From: Candidatus Kaiserbacteria bacterium
GTDB lineage: Bacteria; Patescibacteriota; Minisyncoccia; Phycocordibacterales; Phycocordibacteraceae
Length of the DNA stretch: 40,539 nucleotides
NCBI GenBank assembly: GCA_016194455.1
Contig: JACQBN010000023.1
Location: 1-40,539 of the forward strand
Direction: 5' to 3'
Shown: piece by piece, positions 23,914-37,424 of the stretch
Layout: every line of letters starts with the position of its first letter
Numbering within the stretch: position 1 is the stretch's first letter
Translations under genes and position numbers: made by a program
Notes under the pieces: generated by a model
Seen by the model: only the letters and a program-made list of their open reading frames with translations
Databases searched by the model: none
Told to the model about the DNA's origin: nothing

Positions 23914-25395
23914 ATGAAAAAATACATTGTAGGTATCGGTATCGCTGTTGCAGCACTCGGCCTCGGGGCTACCGTGGCCTTCGCTACGGTTAATCCTGTT
24001 ACCGCAGCGACCGGGGGCGAGGCCATATCTATCGATACGACATCCGCGTCTGGCGGCAGTAATACCTTTACCACCCCCATTACCGGCCCAGTTATTACGG
24101 AAGCTTCCGTGGGCGATATTGGGGCCGGTACTTATGTGTTGACTCTTCCCGCCGGCTGGGTGTTTGATACCGGCGCGACGGTAACAATCGGCCTGAATGG
24201 GGGAACCGATATCGATGCCAGCTCTACTGCGACTGTTGGCAGCAATACGCTCACCTTCGGGGTGCTGACACCCTCTAGTGGGGCCTCGGCCGTGCTTACC
24301 TTCAACGGTATTGCGGTGAAGCCGACGGGGACCGCCACCAGCACCGGTAATATGCTCATCTCTTCCGATGATGGCGGTAGCATCGTGGGAGTAGATGGCA
24401 GCACCAACTTCGGCACGTTCGGCACCGTGCCGGGCGCGCTTACAAGCATCACCGTCTCTCCCGACGGAAACACCATTACTGCAGACCAAACGCAGCTATT
24501 CGCCGCCGAAGGCTTTGACCAGTTCGCGAACAGCAGAGGCGACGTGACCGGGGGCACCACCTTTACCGTGAGCTCCGGCAGCATGTTCGGGTCCTTCACC
24601 GGCGCAACCTTCCAGCCGGCTTCGACGAGCCCATCAATCACGGTGCACGGAGCGCATGCCGACACGGCCGGCGATGACGCGGCAATCACGGTAACGCCCG
24701 GCGTGGCGACAACGGTTGCCATTACCACGCAGCCGGCAAACACGAACGGCACGGTAGACAATCCGCTCCAGCAACAGCCGATAATTCATGTGACCGACCA
24801 ATTCAACAATGACGTTGCCGATGGCACCGCGGTTACCGCCTCGGTGGTGAGCGGCACGGGCCCCGCGCTCCGCAATACCGCAACGACGACCTTGGGCGCG
24901 GGCGTCGCGACCTTTACCACTCTCGGCACGACCTTGGGCGCGGGCGTCGCGACCTTTACCACTCTCGGCTACAACAAAGCCGCGGAACCCTTTACGCTCA
25001 AGTTTTCCTCAAACAGCAATGATAGCGACACCTCAGATACGGTGTCAGCCCTTATTTACGGAGTGCCGCACCATCTGGCATACGACGTCCAGCCGTCAAA
25101 CGTGAGGGTGAACACAGCCATCACACCCGCGGTCAAGGTGAGCATCCGCGACCAGTACGACAATACGCGGACAGGGCAGAACGGCACCGGAGTCTCCGTC
25201 TACGCCGTTACGCCGCAAGGGAAAAAGATCTCAGTTTCAGGCGGCGGAAGCACTACAATCTCCGGCGTCGCCACCTTCTCGTCGATCATGCTTAATCAGC
25301 CCGGCGGCTACGTGCTTGGCGCACACACGTTTGGACTCTCTGACATTCTGTCCGTACCGTTCAACGTTGCTCCCGCAACGAAGGGTAAGAAATAA
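23914..25395 (+). CDS. Secreted Ig-like (Big/invasin-type) surface protein
   Basis: Signal peptide MKKYIVGIGIAVAALGLGATVAFA; IHVTDQFNNDVADGTAVTASV, VSIRDQYDNTRTGQNGTGVSVYA. Confidence 0.8.
   Translation: MKKYIVGIGIAVAALGLGATVAFATVNPVTAATGGEAISIDTTSASGGSNTFTTPITGPVITEASVGDIGAGTYVLTLPAGWVFDTGATVTIGLNGGTDIDASSTATVGSNTLTFGVLTPSSGASAVLTFNGIAVKPTGTATSTGNMLISSDDGGSIVGVDGSTNFGTFGTVPGALTSITVSPDGNTITADQTQLFAAEGFDQFANSRGDVTGGTTFTVSSGSMFGSFTGATFQPASTSPSITVHGAHADTAGDDAAITVTPGVATTVAITTQPANTNGTVDNPLQQQPIIHVTDQFNNDVADGTAVTASVVSGTGPALRNTATTTLGAGVATFTTLGTTLGAGVATFTTLGYNKAAEPFTLKFSSNSNDSDTSDTVSALIYGVPHHLAYDVQPSNVRVNTAITPAVKVSIRDQYDNTRTGQNGTGVSVYAVTPQGKKISVSGGGSTTISGVATFSSIMLNQPGGYVLGAHTFGLSDILSVPFNVAPATKGKK
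24886..24969 (+). repeat. Perfect 42-bp x2 in-frame tandem duplication
   Basis: acgaccttgggcgcgggcgtcgcgacctttaccactctcggc at 24886-24927 and 24928-24969. Confidence 0.95.
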
Positions 25396-26125: not shown

Positions 26126-27586
26126 ATGACCCCAGAACCCAGCCTAAAGCCTTTGCAAGTTCTTGAAGGCAGGAGCCCCCTTGTGCTCTTCAAGCGCATG
26201 GCAAAAGAGGTCCCCGCCTACCGTCGCTTCCTTCGCGCCCACGGCGTGAAGCCGGAGAAGATAACGACCACTGAACACCTCGCAGCAGTACCGATAATGA
26301 GCAAGGCAAACTATTTGAACAAGAGCGCCTTCAGCGATCTCTTTTGGGACGGGTCGTTGAAAGCGCCGCACGCACTTACCTCCACCTCCGGCTCCACCGG
26401 CAAGCCAACTTATTTTGCGCGCTCACACGCGGTGGATCAGCAGTCCTCGACCATACACGAGCTTATCTTCAGAGCGAGCTCGCTTGAGCCCACCGAGTCC
26501 ACTCTGGTTATCATCTGTTTTGGCATGGGCGTGTGGATTGGCGGCCTCATCACCTATCAGGCCTTCGAGCTTATGGGTCGTCGTGGCTACCCGATCTCAA
26601 TTCTGACGCCCGGCATCAACAAAGCGGAGATCCTCAAGGCGCTCCGGGATCTGGCGCCGCAGTATCGTCAACTCATACTCGCGGGTTACCCCCCGTTTCT
26701 CAAAGACGTTATCGACGAGGCGGTCGCCGCCGGTATCACCTTCAAGAAACACCGCGTTACATTATTGTTCGCCGCAGAGGCGTTCACCGAAACCTTCCGC
26801 GATCACGTCGCCAAGAAGGTCGGACTCAAGAATCCTCTGACCGACACCGTCAATATCTATGGCAGCGCGGATCTCGGCACCATGGCATTCGAAACCCCGC
26901 TCTCCATTCTTGCTCGTCGTCTTGCGGTCAAGAACAGAAAACTCTTCGCCGACTTGTTCCGGGGCGCCGCGAAGACCCCAACGCTGGCTCAGTACCTTCC
27001 GCAGTTCGTCTCGTTTGAGGCTCCGGACGGAGAGATTCTCATTTCAGGCGACAGCGCCGTGCCGCTGCTGCGCTACGCAATCGGAGACCACGGCGGCGTC
27101 TATACGTTTCACGGACTCCTGGAGCGCTTCAGAGCCAACAAAATCGATCTTTTAAAAGAGGCGCGCAAAGCGGGCATCGGAAAAAACGTGCTCGAGCTAC
27201 CGTTCGTCTATGTCTATGAACGCGTCGATCTCTCGACCACGCTCTACGGGCTCCAGGTCTATCCGGAAACCATTAAAGAAGTACTGCTTGATCGGCGATT
27301 CCAAAAATTCTTGACGGGGAAGCTCACTCTCGTTACCAAGTTCGACCACGAACAAAACCAGTATCTAGAGATCAATCTCGAACAAAAACCAAAGAGGGAA
27401 GCCAGCAAAGTCGTACGCGCCGAGCTCCTGGCGGAAATTATGAAGAATTTGCGGGAGAAAAACTCTGAGTTTCGCGAACTCTCGGACTTCCTCGGTTCGC
27501 GCTCCGAACCAAAGCTCGTTTTCTGGCCCTACGAGGACCCACTGTATTTTAAACCCGGCATGAAGCAGCCCTGGGTCGTGCGATAG
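26126..27586 (+). CDS. PaaK/CapK-like adenylate-forming enzyme (phenylacetate-CoA ligase family)
   Basis: TSTSGSTGKPTYFARSH P-loop, NIYGSADLGTMAFE, PLLRYAIGDHGGV. Confidence 0.8.
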   Translation: MTPEPSLKPLQVLEGRSPLVLFKRMAKEVPAYRRFLRAHGVKPEKITTTEHLAAVPIMSKANYLNKSAFSDLFWDGSLKAPHALTSTSGSTGKPTYFARSHAVDQQSSTIHELIFRASSLEPTESTLVIICFGMGVWIGGLITYQAFELMGRRGYPISILTPGINKAEILKALRDLAPQYRQLILAGYPPFLKDVIDEAVAAGITFKKHRVTLLFAAEAFTETFRDHVAKKVGLKNPLTDTVNIYGSADLGTMAFETPLSILARRLAVKNRKLFADLFRGAAKTPTLAQYLPQFVSFEAPDGEILISGDSAVPLLRYAIGDHGGVYTFHGLLERFRANKIDLLKEARKAGIGKNVLELPFVYVYERVDLSTTLYGLQVYPETIKEVLLDRRFQKFLTGKLTLVTKFDHEQNQYLEINLEQKPKREASKVVRAELLAEIMKNLREKNSEFRELSDFLGSRSEPKLVFWPYEDPLYFKPGMKQPWVVR

Positions 27587-27615
27587 ACGTCAACGGCGCG
27601 TGCTAAACTCCTAGC

Positions 27616-28659
27616 ATGGCGGCTAGGTCTCTAGCGGTATTTGAGAAACAATTTCCCTTTGACGCAGACTCCCGTCAGCGTATACTGGCGTTGCTTGAAG
27701 CCGCCACCCGGGCGCCCTCCACCCACAACAGCCAGCCGTGGATGTTCCGTGTTGTAGGCGATGCAGTTGAAATCTTTCGGGACACGAACGTCAAACTCCC
27801 GCAGTCCGATGCCCATACTCGCTATGCGCACATCAGCATCGGATTCTTGCTCCACCACATCCTCGTGCTCGGGCGCTTTGTGGGGATGCACCCAGAAGTA
27901 AGCATTCTAGTTTCGGGCGTTTCGATCGCGAGGGTCCGCTTCTCTCCGGCGGGAACACGAGAGGAGGACATACTCCCCCTCGCACAAGCGATTTTCGCTC
28001 GGCGCAATCAGCGCGGCACTTTCCAGAGCGGCAAAAAAATTCCAGAGATGCTTCTGGAACAACTCGCGCAGCGTGCGCCAGAAATGCCTGCAGAATTTCC
28101 GCGTGTCGAGCTCTCCATCGTTACTAGTCCCGCGTCGGCTGCGCGGATAGGGAAGCTCACCAAGGAGACGATGATTCGTTTGTACAGTCGCCCAGAATTC
28201 CGGCGCGAGATGTCCAGTTGGATTACGCCGACAGGTTCGGGGCGTAGGGACGGCATTCCCGGCTTCTCGCTCAACCAACCGCTCCTTCTTTCCTGGATTC
28301 TCCCGTCGCTTATTCGGAGATTCAACATCGGGAAGATACCTGGGAAGTTGAGCGCCGCCGCACTTGCCTCTGCGCCCGCGATATTCGGCTTCGGATCGGA
28401 TCAGGACCCCGCTTCGTGGCTCTCGATCGGCTTCCAAGCATCGCACGATATACTCACTCTCGTCGCAAACGGATTTGATGCATCGATCTATGTCGCTTCT
28501 GTCGAGCTTCCCGAGATTCAACGTGAGGCGACGGGGCTGTGCGGGCTCAAGAAATCGCTTCAATTTTTGTTTGCAGCAGGGAAGCTTGAGAGTTCGGCGT
28601 CGTGGTACACGCCGCGAGTTCCGCTCGCGACAAGATTGTCTCCTCAGCTGCCTCCATGA
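27616..28659 (+). CDS. Nitroreductase-family FMN protein
   Basis: LEAATRAPSTHNSQPWMFRVVGDAVEIF motif; HISIGFLLHHILV. Confidence 0.8.
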   Translation: MAARSLAVFEKQFPFDADSRQRILALLEAATRAPSTHNSQPWMFRVVGDAVEIFRDTNVKLPQSDAHTRYAHISIGFLLHHILVLGRFVGMHPEVSILVSGVSIARVRFSPAGTREEDILPLAQAIFARRNQRGTFQSGKKIPEMLLEQLAQRAPEMPAEFPRVELSIVTSPASAARIGKLTKETMIRLYSRPEFRREMSSWITPTGSGRRDGIPGFSLNQPLLLSWILPSLIRRFNIGKIPGKLSAAALASAPAIFGFGSDQDPASWLSIGFQASHDILTLVANGFDASIYVASVELPEIQREATGLCGLKKSLQFLFAAGKLESSASWYTPRVPLATRLSPQLPP

Positions 28660-29699
28660 TCGAAATTCTTGATCCGACACAGTCCGCAGACGTCAAACGC
28701 CTGACTGCGCTCCGGGCGGAAGGGATCCCAGTCGTAGATACGTATGCCGAACAATGCGCTGAGCTCGCTCAGATCCGCGATCCGCAGTCGCTTGGCGGGA
28801 CCCCAACGCTGCTCGCGGAGAGTCCGGGCGAGCGTTTTGTCTACTACCCCTGGCGCCGAGCGCTTGTGCGCATCGTAGGCGCGCGCGCCTATGCCGAGCT
28901 CCGGACCAATCGTAATCGCGAACTGCTCACACCAGATGAGCAGGAGCGCTTTGCGAAAGCGCGCATCGGGTTCGCGGGGCTTAACGTCGGTAATCCGGGT
29001 GCCGTCTGCATTGCGCTTGAGGGCGGCGCGCGCGCCATGAAGCTTGCGGACTTTGATCCGCTCTCGCTCACGAATCTGAACCGCTTCCGCTCCGGTATCC
29101 CCGACCTGGGGGTCAACAAAGCGACGCTCACGGCCCGCCAAATTCTTGAAATAGATCCTTATTATGACCTTGAACTGTACGACAAAGGTCTCGCGCCAAG
29201 CAATGTCGAGCAGTTCATGACGAGCCCACAACTCAGTCTGTTAGTAGAAGAAACAGATGCGCTTCCTCTGAAGATTAGTGTCCGTGAGTCGGCGAAGCGC
29301 GCGCGGATCCCGGTCATCATGGTTACCGGTAACGGGGAGGGGGTGATCTTGGATGTTGAGCGATACGACCTTGAGCCCGAACTACCCATCCTGAACGGTC
29401 TTCTTTCTGAACGAGTCGCTCGTGCAGCCGTCTCGCCTGCGACCAAGGCGCTCCCGCCGCGCGAGAAGGCACATCTCGCACGCGACTTCATGGGCTCGCG
29501 CTATCTCGATCAGCGACTGCTGAATTCCTTTAACGCCTTCGGCACCACCCTGGTCGGTATCCCGCAACTCGCCGAATCCTCTTTTATGCGCGGGGCTGCG
29601 CTCTGCTACGCCGCAAAAGCGATTATCCTTGGCCGGCTCCTGTCATCGGGCCGCTATTCGTTTTCGTTTTCTGAGCAATTGAAAACAGCCAACGCTTGA
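28656..29699 (+). CDS. ThiF/E1-like Rossmann adenylyltransferase family protein
   Basis: IGFAGLNVGNPGAVCIALEGGARAMKLADFDPLSLTNLNRFRSGIPDLGVNKATLTARQILEIDPYYDLELYDKGL; 4-nt ATGA overlap with upstream gene. Confidence 0.82.
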   Translation: MIEILDPTQSADVKRLTALRAEGIPVVDTYAEQCAELAQIRDPQSLGGTPTLLAESPGERFVYYPWRRALVRIVGARAYAELRTNRNRELLTPDEQERFAKARIGFAGLNVGNPGAVCIALEGGARAMKLADFDPLSLTNLNRFRSGIPDLGVNKATLTARQILEIDPYYDLELYDKGLAPSNVEQFMTSPQLSLLVEETDALPLKISVRESAKRARIPVIMVTGNGEGVILDVERYDLEPELPILNGLLSERVARAAVSPATKALPPREKAHLARDFMGSRYLDQRLLNSFNAFGTTLVGIPQLAESSFMRGAALCYAAKAIILGRLLSSGRYSFSFSEQLKTANA

Positions 29700-29706
29700 T
29701 ATCTCT

Positions 29707-31281
29707 ATGGTTTCAATTTTCAATCTTGATTTGCTCTGGGTGGGTCTCGCAGTGGCGGGCGCCGGCACACTCGGATTTTCGATCTATTTCTCCGATCCAA
29801 AGAACCCAACGTCTCGCGCGTTTCTTTTTTTCGCGTTTCTGAGTATTTTCTGGAGCATCGCGAATTTTGCAAGCGCTCGCGCGACTGACCCAACCACCGT
29901 TCTCTGGTTTATCCGCGCCGTCTTATTCTTTGCGACGTGGCATGCATTCTCTTTTTTTGTACTTGCGCACCAGTTCCTCGAGCGGCAACCAGTATTTACC
30001 ACGCGCGTCTTTGCCGGCTTCTTATCGTGGACAGCCGCGGTCTCCATCGTGGTGTTGACTCCGGTTGTGTATGAGGCGGTGACCGCAGTCTCTCCTTCGG
30101 TGGAGACGAGAACCGGCCCCGGCATCACGTTGTTTGCCCTCACAGTGTTTGGATTCGTGGGAATAGCCATCTGGACACTCACGCGGAAGTTCTTACGCTC
30201 TTCCGGGGCCGAACGGCGCCAGATGGAGTTCGTGCTCGCCGGCGTGCTGACGACATTCTTTTTCCTAGTCGTATTTGATTTCATATTTCCAGCCTTCTTC
30301 AACAACCCAACACTTGTTCCCTATGGCGGCCTCTTTCTCTTACCCCTCATTTTCGGTACGGCCTACGCGATACTCGCGCATCGGCTCTTCGACGTGCGTG
30401 TCGCCATCTTCGGGCTCCTTACCTTCCTGCTCGCAACTGCAACATTCTTCGATATTCTTCTCTCAGATTCGGTCGGCCTCGTGCTCTATCGTACCGGTGA
30501 ACTCGCGTTGGTACTCGTCGCGGGCATCTGGCTCATCAAGAGCATGGTGCGTGAGTTTGAGCTCGAACAAGAACTCTCGGAGACCAACACGCGCCAAGAA
30601 GGCCTGCTGCGCTTCATCAGTCATGAGGTCAAAGGATTCTTGACCAAGGACGCGGCAGCATTCGCGGCCCTCGCCGAGGGCGATTTCGGCGCCCTGCCGC
30701 AGCAGCCACAGGAATTTATCGTAAACGCGCTCGCGCAAACGCGCGGCGGCGTCTCCTCGGTCATGGACATCCTCAAGGCCTCGAATCAGAAGAAGGGCAC
30801 GACCGAATATAAAAAAGAGCCTTTTGATCTTGCAGTCCTCGCGAAGGAGGCGGTGGAGAACGCGCAGCCTGCAGCTAAAAGCAAGGGCCTCGCGCTCACG
30901 TTCACTGCGGATCCGGCGGACGCACAGTATACCGTTATCGGCGACAAAGCGGAGATCGGGGAGCACGTGCTGCGCAACCTCGTCGAGAACGCGCTTACCT
31001 ACACGCCGACAGGCCGGATTGATGTTTCGCTCACAAAGGGAGGAAATGGCCGCTTCATTTTCACCGTCGCGGATACCGGTATCGGGATTAGCAACGAGGA
31101 CAAGTCGCGGCTCTTCACCGAAGGCGGGCACGGCAAAGATTCACAGAAGGTGAACGTCCACTCCACCGGCTACGGTCTCTTCATCGCGAAGAACATCGTG
31201 AAGGCGCATGGCGGCATCATCCGCGCGGAATCCGCAGGGCCCAGCAAGGGTTCGCGCTTCGTCGTTGAGTTGCCGGCTTAA
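29707..31281 (+). CDS. Membrane histidine kinase with N-terminal 7TM-type sensor region
   Basis: Multiple TM helices; H-box RFISHEVKGFLTKD; NLVENALTYTPTG N-box; DTGIGIS and STGYGLFIAKNIVKAHGG. Confidence 0.88.
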   Translation: MVSIFNLDLLWVGLAVAGAGTLGFSIYFSDPKNPTSRAFLFFAFLSIFWSIANFASARATDPTTVLWFIRAVLFFATWHAFSFFVLAHQFLERQPVFTTRVFAGFLSWTAAVSIVVLTPVVYEAVTAVSPSVETRTGPGITLFALTVFGFVGIAIWTLTRKFLRSSGAERRQMEFVLAGVLTTFFFLVVFDFIFPAFFNNPTLVPYGGLFLLPLIFGTAYAILAHRLFDVRVAIFGLLTFLLATATFFDILLSDSVGLVLYRTGELALVLVAGIWLIKSMVREFELEQELSETNTRQEGLLRFISHEVKGFLTKDAAAFAALAEGDFGALPQQPQEFIVNALAQTRGGVSSVMDILKASNQKKGTTEYKKEPFDLAVLAKEAVENAQPAAKSKGLALTFTADPADAQYTVIGDKAEIGEHVLRNLVENALTYTPTGRIDVSLTKGGNGRFIFTVADTGIGISNEDKSRLFTEGGHGKDSQKVNVHSTGYGLFIAKNIVKAHGGIIRAESAGPSKGSRFVVELPA

Positions 31282-35576: not shown

Positions 35577-37424
35577 TTAGCCGAGAGCTCGGGGTCGGCT
35601 CTTGTTTGGGGGTAGTGGTGGTGGTATATCCTCATCTTCTTCATTGGTTTGTTTTTCGGGTGCAGGCATATTCTGGTATCTTTCCTCTATTATGCTCCGT
35701 GCTAAAGTTTCAAAACGCGCCGCTCGTTCTTTGATCGAACTCACTTCTGCTTCCGCCGTTGTTGCCTTGCGCTCTTCAAATCCAACACTCGTATCTCCCG
35801 ACTGTTTATTAAGTCCGTTAGCGCGTCTCCATTCATACATCGCTTTTGTAGGGTCGCCACCAGAATAAAAAACTACCTTTGATGGTTTCTTGTCCGGGTG
35901 AGTAGCAAAATATGAATTCCAATATTCTTCGGAGGAAATAGTATTTTTTGCCTCTGCAAAACGAGTGCCAGATTCCTCTAATATCCCATCTATGGCACGA
36001 CCAAGGTCGCCTTCCCGTTCCCTTTCGTCACGACGCGAACTCGCACCTTCGAGTCCCCGAGCAGTGCTGTATCTAAACAACTGTTGCAATATACGGTCAT
36101 CATTAACACCAGTTACTTCTTTGATTTTGTCACGTATCGGTATGAGCGCCTTCAAAACATCCGGGTTTGCATATTTTTCTTGCGGCCACTGTTTTTCAAG
36201 TTCACTCTCCCATGCAGAGGGCGGTGGCAATCTATCTGAACTCGGAAGACTGCCCAGCTGATGTTGAATTTCTTCCGTGTATTTTGATAATTCCGGAGAA
36301 GCCGTGAGTTGTTTTAGGCTCTCGAATACAGCCATGTTTTTAATCGGCTTATTATCTGGACCAATTTCATAACGAGAACCATTTTTCGGATCAACCTGTG
36401 CGTCCTGTGGAATAAAAACGAGTCCGGCATCCAGTTTTATTCCGTGATCTTCTTGAGAAAGAACCCAAGCATCGTTATGTTGGTCACCAATTTTTTCAGG
36501 GGCAATATCTCCGTGGCTAAAGTGATATTGCGAGCCAATGAATGCAGATGGGTATGCAATAAAAATCTCATTCCCTTTTTCTGAGCCATAGAAACGATCC
36601 GCAACTTCTTCGGCTGCAAAGTGAATTGCTGCCCGATCCGCATAACTTCCTTGCCCGCCACTCATAAATGACTCCAATCTTGCGAGTGCTTCTTCACGAG
36701 TTGCTGGCAGTTCTCCTTTTCGGGAGTTTAAAAGTCCAAGAATCGCTTCCTCCTTTCCACTTTCCGCTATTTTTATGGCAAGAGGAGATTTTAGGGAACC
36801 ATCATCAAGCATTTTCTCAAAACCATTATGAAATGCTCCAGTGCCCGCTGTATGCTCCCACATTCCAGTGTGGTCGCGAATACCTTGTCGCGTAACGTGC
36901 GTAACCATTTCGGAAGGGAAACGCTTCATGAGGAGTGCGTAATCCTCAACCGATAGCGAAGCTAGATGCTCCTCGGTAAACATCTGTGCGATATCTTCTT
37001 TGCCATACTCCGCATTTGCCCAACGTTCTTTTTCTTTTTCATAGAGCGCACTGACAGCTTCTTGCCCAGAGCGATTTGGGTTACGCGCAGCAACCGTTGT
37101 GTCGATTTCGGCCTTACGCTCCTGTACCATACCAAGTGATGCCCGTACTTTTTTAACTTCAAAGTAGCTCCGTACTTTGGTCAAAAATGAACTGCTATTG
37201 TAGTCGTCCAACTTTGTTTCAAGCTCATTGATTTCTTTTTCGAGTTCGCTTTGTTCTCGACGTTCTTGGGAATGCTCGCCTCTCTCTGCTCGAATCTTTT
37301 CTGCAAGGGCATTGCGTTCGTCAATGTTACTTTCGCGAGAAAAATCCTTTACAAACTCCGGAGTATCAGTTTCCGGGCCTTTTTCTTGTTTTGGTTTTGA
37401 TGCGCTTGGCGTTCCTTCACTCAT
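35577..37424 (-). CDS. Large hypothetical protein, 615 aa, apparently cytosolic, with N-terminal coiled-coil-like region
   Basis: Long intact ORF, AT-richer than flanks; no recognised catalytic motif; no signal peptide. Confidence 0.8.
   Translation of the reverse strand: MSEGTPSASKPKQEKGPETDTPEFVKDFSRESNIDERNALAEKIRAERGEHSQERREQSELEKEINELETKLDDYNSSSFLTKVRSYFEVKKVRASLGMVQERKAEIDTTVAARNPNRSGQEAVSALYEKEKERWANAEYGKEDIAQMFTEEHLASLSVEDYALLMKRFPSEMVTHVTRQGIRDHTGMWEHTAGTGAFHNGFEKMLDDGSLKSPLAIKIAESGKEEAILGLLNSRKGELPATREEALARLESFMSGGQGSYADRAAIHFAAEEVADRFYGSEKGNEIFIAYPSAFIGSQYHFSHGDIAPEKIGDQHNDAWVLSQEDHGIKLDAGLVFIPQDAQVDPKNGSRYEIGPDNKPIKNMAVFESLKQLTASPELSKYTEEIQHQLGSLPSSDRLPPPSAWESELEKQWPQEKYANPDVLKALIPIRDKIKEVTGVNDDRILQQLFRYSTARGLEGASSRRDEREREGDLGRAIDGILEESGTRFAEAKNTISSEEYWNSYFATHPDKKPSKVVFYSGGDPTKAMYEWRRANGLNKQSGDTSVGFEERKATTAEAEVSSIKERAARFETLARSIIEERYQNMPAPEKQTNEEDEDIPPPLPPNKSRPRALG

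Follow-up and report, generated by a model that had tools for sequence, protein, structure and literature searches.

The window analyzed here is a 40,539-nucleotide stretch of a Candidatus Kaiserbacteria (Patescibacteria) assembly (604 kb, 83% complete), and the system under study is a set of four co-directional genes on its forward strand, all four of whose open reading frames (ORFs) were found where the initial annotation had placed them. They encode a PaaK-like ANL ligase (486 aa; positions 26126–27586), a nitroreductase-superfamily flavin mononucleotide (FMN) enzyme, hereafter FDO (347 aa; 27616–28659), an E1/ThiF-like protein resembling the TrzS/Rv1355c cyclases (28656–29699), and a histidine kinase (524 aa; 29707–31281) whose residues 1–290 (29707–30576) make up a seven-transmembrane (7TM) sensor domain. 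The spacing described earlier was also borne out: 29 nt separate the ligase and nitroreductase genes, the gap before the kinase measures 7 nt (at most 8 bp had been claimed), and the FDO stop codon shares a 4-nt ATGA overlap (28656–28659) with the likely start of the E1 gene. Because of this overlap, translation of the E1 gene likely begins at the ATG at 28656, giving a protein of 347 aa; the longer ORF from the GTG at 28602 (365 aa) would share 58 nt with the nitroreductase gene. The family calls stand as well, by profile for ThiF, nitroreductase, and HisKA_7TM/HATPase_c, and by a weak PaaK match together with a structural model for the ligase.

The quartet recurs across Patescibacteria. Among 379 sampled genomes, a strong E1 match (E-value of 1e-28 or better) was present in 46 and the ANL ligase in 54; both occurred together in 43 genomes, the ligase alone in 11, the E1 alone in three, and neither in 322 (Fisher p = 1.2e-42, a statistic that ignores ancestry). 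When approximately 85,000 species genomes were scanned with a 12-sequence ANL alignment and the best 80 loci were taken, all of these lay in Patescibacteria groups or unnamed bacteria, with an E1 gene within six genes of the ligase in 77, a kinase in 64, and an FDO in 61. After removal of duplicates, 108 distinct Patescibacteria ANL loci remained (E1 nearby in 104, kinase in 88, FDO in 79), and the 320 operon gene gaps measured at these loci had a median length of 4 nt and never exceeded 135 nt. The co-occurrence check that the initial annotation had called for thus places the four genes together far above chance, and it is close to certain that the quartet is a conserved functional unit. No E1 relative was found on viral contigs. 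The ligase of the window is more than 70% identical to those of many relatives (L164, L127, L151, and L034 were compared), but for its E1 and FDO the only close counterparts are in L164 and L127 (about 66% and 47%, respectively); these identities suggest that E1 and FDO were exchanged together.

The E1-like protein matches the N-terminal half of the NCBIfam Rv1355c family (NF005901) with 305 bits, which is under a curated cut-off of 476 bits that was set on the whole fusion protein, whereas ThiF and MoeB models reach at most 47 bits and the Pfam ThiF domain (PF00899) 42 bits. Identity to members of the Rv1355c family from Rhodococcus and Mycolicibacterium is 37–41% over 78–98% of the length, and with the cyclase half of mycobacterial TrzS/Rv1355c it is put at about 38%; all 43 E1 homologues collected match the same family. 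In these homologues the ATP-site residues R104, N105, N160, R161, K173, and D219 are invariant; Asp219 (29256–29258, numbered from the GTG at 28602) aligns with an Asp that Rv1355c proteins conserve in their adenylation motif and that was taken as Asp217 of TrzS, the residue whose replacement in the D217A variant abolishes cyclization (PMC12856293). TrzS is Rv1355c itself, in which the ThiF domain cyclizes N-acyl-tryptophan with ATP and the FDO domain desaturates the product (PMC12856293), and the separate proteins TyzB and TyzC carry out the same reactions on N-acyl-tyrosine (PMC10404671). The window has its cyclase and oxidase split as in TyzB/TyzC, while relative L066 has them fused as in TrzS; some actinobacterial E1 relatives adjoin a GNAT or ketosynthase gene. 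By sequence, the E1-like protein belongs with the oxazolone cyclases TrzS, TyzB, and OxzB. Its predicted substrates are N-acyl amino acids in free form, for which neither a MoaD/ThiS-like protein nor a precursor peptide would be needed.

The initial annotation had proposed an activation-transfer-redox pathway with its own sensor, acting on a small molecule or a peptide. The conserved small-molecule operon for activation and redox chemistry, with its sensor, is upheld; the E1 as a transfer enzyme for a carrier protein or peptide is not. That an E1 should activate a ubiquitin-like carrier or the precursor of a ribosomally synthesized and post-translationally modified peptide, in the manner of ThiF/MoeB or MccB, would fit the shared E1 fold and adenylation residues, but here it is very improbable: the TrzS family outscores ThiF/MoeB by the wide difference given above, the protein has three cysteines in total and no CxxC zinc motif, and clustering of the neighboring genes yielded no conserved small ORF (ORFs shorter than 60 aa were not searched). 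The carrier-protein or precursor-peptide idea also found no support in the gap lengths, as the tight spacing in relatives leaves little room for such a gene.

The second member of the proposed cyclase–desaturase pair, the FDO, matches PF00881 and PF14512. Its closest profile is that of the Acg family (NF047509; 160.8 bits, under the cut-off of 199), its best solved relative is likewise Acg (2ymv), and it matches the C-terminal half of the Rv1355c family NF005901 with 46 bits; its FMN motif, RAPSTHNSQPW, is invariant in part among homologues. Acg genes have not been reported beside oxazolone genes (PMC10404671), whereas here the FMN gene overlaps the cyclase gene by the 4 nt described above. 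Judging from sequence relationships, it is likely that an N-acyl amino acid is the substrate of the E1 and FDO and that they work on it as the corresponding TrzS domains do.

The ligase has no Pfam match, and its score against the NCBIfam PaaK model (54 bits) falls far short of the cut-off of 646 bits. Its AlphaFold2 model (predicted local distance difference test score, pLDDT, of 89.9) is nevertheless closest to PaaK1 (Z 29.3), followed by the PaaK-like ligases NatL2, AjiA1, and ClxA (Z of about 25), with amide-forming GH3 enzymes at Z of about 15–17. The protein keeps the P-loop TSGSTGKP (residues 87–94; 26384–26407), in which S88, G89, and G92 are invariant among 40 homologues, the RYxxGDxGG motif, and an equally invariant C-terminal Lys480 (27563–27565), which by analogy with ANL enzymes is expected to be the A10 catalytic lysine. 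Nucleotide-binding residues are thereby retained in both adenylating proteins of the operon, and neither of the two refuting outcomes named in the initial annotation was observed. As modeled, the protein is a member of the ANL superfamily with a PaaK-like fold; it shares fold and adenylation motifs with PaaK1, NatL2, AjiA1, and ClxA but is at most about 20% identical to such ligases. Some ligases of the PaaK-like group couple acids without coenzyme A (CoA).

The known oxazolone pathways, TrzAS, TyzABC, and OxzAB, make N-acyl oxazolones and require an N-acyltransferase of the FeeM/LuxI (acyl-homoserine lactone synthase) fold. No FeeM acyltransferase was matched in the window genome (83% complete), and a match above the cut-off occurs in only one of 47 cassette genomes, where it is unlinked; the other matches fall under the cut-off and resemble the weak ones in control genomes. 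A second, shorter type of E1 (mostly about 265 aa) in Patescibacteria adjoins the same 7TM kinase family at loci where the ligase is absent (L173–L191, e.g., L175:7532-10680), and many of the weak E1 matches in the 379-genome survey adjoin this kinase family too. At nine of these 19 ligase-free loci the partner is a FeeM/LuxI-type acyltransferase (that of L175 matches PF21926 with 48.7 bits and Autoind_synth with 40.6 bits), and elsewhere it is a methyltransferase or GNAT protein. Because an acyltransferase adjoins the E1 where the ligase is absent, we infer that the ligase takes the acyltransferase's place. At L188:1422-2723, a radical-SAM/SPASM-like protein is encoded near a short E1-like gene, which may hint at a peptide-modifying variant. 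The one FeeM-type gene above the cut-off in a cassette genome is a solitary gene of G185, a genome of the same genus as the window (L167:9007-9702), between ftsH- and recG-like genes and unlinked to the cassette.

It is somewhat likely that the ligase performs the N-acylation itself. A related pathway can be drawn in which the ligase yields acyl-CoA only, as its closest structural match PaaK, a CoA ligase, does, and an unlinked or unrecognized acyltransferase transfers the acyl group to the amino acid; the unlinked FeeM gene of G185 speaks for it. We regard this as unlikely, given that 46 of the 47 cassette genomes have no FeeM match above the cut-off and that no acyltransferase is conserved in the cassette neighborhoods.

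The neighborhoods may reveal a source for the acid. Beside the ligase, 68 of the 108 loci carry one of three unrelated enzymes that can remove amino groups: an ELFV dehydrogenase (43), a pyridoxal phosphate-dependent aminotransferase (17), or a member of the aromatic-amino-acid-lyase family (8). Such an enzyme is absent at the remaining 40 loci, and in no case do two occur together, against about 10 doubles under independent placement. The best NCBIfam matches are to the tryptophan dehydrogenase ScyB for the dehydrogenase, and to FlxA tyrosine ammonia-lyase or tyrosine aminomutase for the lyase; most of these matches lie under curated cut-offs and so do not specify the amino acid. The reaction common to the three enzymes would fit the supply of an aryl-pyruvate or aryl-acrylate. 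The aminotransferase of a same-genus relative was not found in the window genome (83% complete).

The kinase scores 52.4 bits against HisKA_7TM (PF16927), for which the cut-off is 28.6, and it also matches HATPase_c (78.5 bits); its phosphoacceptor His306 and its N and G boxes are invariant among 39 homologues. When 12 other cassette genomes were searched with the sensor domain of the window, one match was found in each, inside the cassette, and three near relatives without the cassette gave weak ones. The AlphaFold2 model of the sensor (pLDDT 89.5) finds G-protein-coupled receptors (GPCRs) as its best structural matches, with mGlu2 at Z 17.6 (3.1 Å over 217 residues) and the match at rank 50 still at Z 14.7, and it has a beta-hairpin at the site of extracellular loop 2 in many GPCRs. 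This modeled likeness is higher than helical bundles usually reach, but it is no proof of homology or of function and may reflect what AlphaFold has learned; a literature search on GPCR-like histidine kinases returned nothing relevant.

We assembled 20 loci (L193–L212) solely by sensor similarity, with neither the ANL ligase nor a TrzS-type E1. A co-directional gene lies at most 110 nt upstream of the kinase in 17 of the 18 loci with a readable neighbor, and eight of these upstream genes could be firmly named: two UbiA-type enzymes, two methyltransferases, a ketosynthase III, a class I/II aminotransferase, an NAD-binding reductase-like protein, and a FeeM-type acyltransferase. The remaining ones are unassigned or resemble such enzymes by eye only. 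By contrast, no small-molecule enzyme was noticed by eye upstream of the 20 control kinases, which came from similar genomes; their neighbors are regulators, cell-wall, pilus, and other genes. This difference supports the kinase as the receptor of a locally made compound, and it is somewhat likely that it senses the product of the pathway.

Two other roles for the kinase were weighed against these neighborhoods. In the first, a small molecule is made by the operon, but the kinase responds to environmental cues, as ordinary sensors do, and merely controls it, an arrangement familiar from the sensor-regulator pairs that often neighbor biosynthesis genes; the literature consulted, moreover, names no ligand for HisKA_7TM. 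As claimed initially, there is no response regulator in the window, but in relatives regulators occur near the cassette at 33 of the 108 loci and are REC-only, hence without DNA binding. In addition, the sensor family adjoins many unrelated small-molecule enzymes, often with no other biosynthetic gene, and the control kinases do not. We thus consider an environmental sensor unlikely, if still deserving of serious weight, and a receptor for the product describes the kinase better than a general sensor does. In the second, the product is a pigment or chromophore carried by the kinase as a light sensor. The matches of the neighboring dehydrogenase and ammonia-lyase to ScyB (scytonemin biosynthesis) and FlxA (flexirubin biosynthesis) would suit this, as would the absorption of aromatic amino acid oxazolones near 360–400 nm (PMC12856293). 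It is scarcely credible all the same, since the sensor domain has no invariant Cys, a nearly invariant Lys at position 231 sits past the seventh helix, and related sensors adjoin quite different enzymes.

Taken together, we propose, at a probability of roughly 45%, that the quartet is a signal-synthase and receptor module whose product is a signal of the N-acyl, oxazolone type and in which the ligase stands in for the acyltransferase. The ligase would activate a carboxylic acid to the acyl-adenylate and, directly or through CoA, acylate an amino acid with it on the amino group; for most relatives, the neighboring dehydrogenase, aminotransferase, or ammonia-lyase would supply the acid as an aryl-pyruvate or aryl-acrylate. 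The E1-like protein would then adenylate the carboxylate of the N-acyl amino acid and close the ring to an oxazolone (azlactone), which the FMN enzyme would desaturate, and the 7TM domain of the adjacent kinase would sense the product and signal via a response regulator, REC-only in relatives. The data here establish operon conservation, the homology of E1 and FDO to the two TrzS halves, the retention of key residues in ligase and E1, the rarity of the usual acyltransferase, and the association of the sensor family with small-molecule genes; the ligase chemistry, the nature of the product, and the kinase's recognition of that product are what we infer.

Several observations weigh against this proposal. 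The FDO is not near about one quarter of the ANL loci, and that of the window is divergent (16–31% identity to the FDOs of the other aligned cassettes) and in alignment does not have the QP motif of TrzS-type FDOs. The FDOs characterized so far use O2, and many Patescibacteria are thought to be fermentative. No deaminating enzyme adjoins the window copy, and the window genome (83% complete) has no ELFV dehydrogenase and one partial aminotransferase match. Finally, the 24 best matches of a profile built from the cassette kinases are all in genomes with the ligase, a result that arises partly by construction. A wider version of the proposal, which we put forward only tentatively, is that Patescibacteria may have modular signaling in which one GPCR-like 7TM kinase family stands in each case beside an exchangeable synthase (a FeeM/LuxI-type acyltransferase, ketosynthase, UbiA-type enzyme, aminotransferase, or methyltransferase), the ANL-E1-FDO set being a new, ligase-built chemotype of the oxazolone type.

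Compared with TrzAS (Rv1356c/Rv1355c), TyzABC, and OxzAB, the module shares a ThiF-type cyclase of the same family and an adjacent or fused nitroreductase-superfamily FMN oxidase, and differs in having a PaaK-like ligase for the FeeM-fold N-acyltransferase, a 7TM histidine kinase in the operon, and, in many relatives, an exchangeable deaminating enzyme. Because a FeeM-type acyltransferase was searched for and is missing, the quartet is not filed among the known oxazolone clusters; it is described as working like one. LuxI, CqsA, and PpyS homologues beside sensory kinases have been reported in genomes of the Candidate Phyla Radiation (CPR) and proposed as complete quorum-sensing systems (Bernard et al., 2020; PMC7567580). 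The two cases have in common a small-molecule synthase gene adjoining a membrane kinase in Patescibacteria; the earlier work does not mention ThiF, whereas the present synthase consists of ANL, E1, and FDO, with a single 7TM family linking several synthase types. Synthase and membrane kinase are encoded together, as expected of quorum sensing, at the 88 of 108 loci with a nearby kinase. In our search on the gene combination, only the oxazolone and CPR quorum-sensing papers were relevant, and we did not find the ANL-E1-FDO cassette, the exchangeable deaminating enzymes, or the 7TM family across synthases described.

Patescibacteria are abundant and depend on hosts, and most have not been cultured; to our knowledge, there is hardly any information on the means by which they perceive one another or a host. 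A conserved operon that combines small-molecule synthesis with a probable receptor makes such sensing testable, since ligase, cyclase, desaturase, and kinase are each open to reconstitution. If the proposal is true, the operon is a new kind of home-made chemical signaling system in a poorly understood branch of the bacteria, and the natural pairing of an oxazolone pathway with a receptor kinase would suggest signaling as one role of oxazolones, whose function in mycobacteria is unresolved according to their discoverers (PMC12856293). The neighborhood rule, a 7TM sensor beside a synthase, could also locate more signal pathways in uncultured genomes.

On the 5' side of the quartet lie a pilin-like gene and the gene for a large surface protein (23914–25395), which is rich in Gly, Thr, and Ser, has no family match, and contains an internal in-frame duplication in which TTLGAGVATFTTLG is repeated. 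On the 3' side, hisS runs toward the kinase gene, and the ends of the two genes share 4 nt (31278–31281). Further downstream, on the minus strand, a 615-aa ORF (35577–37424) with no Pfam or NCBIfam match occupies the stretch with the lowest GC content of the window (about 49%).

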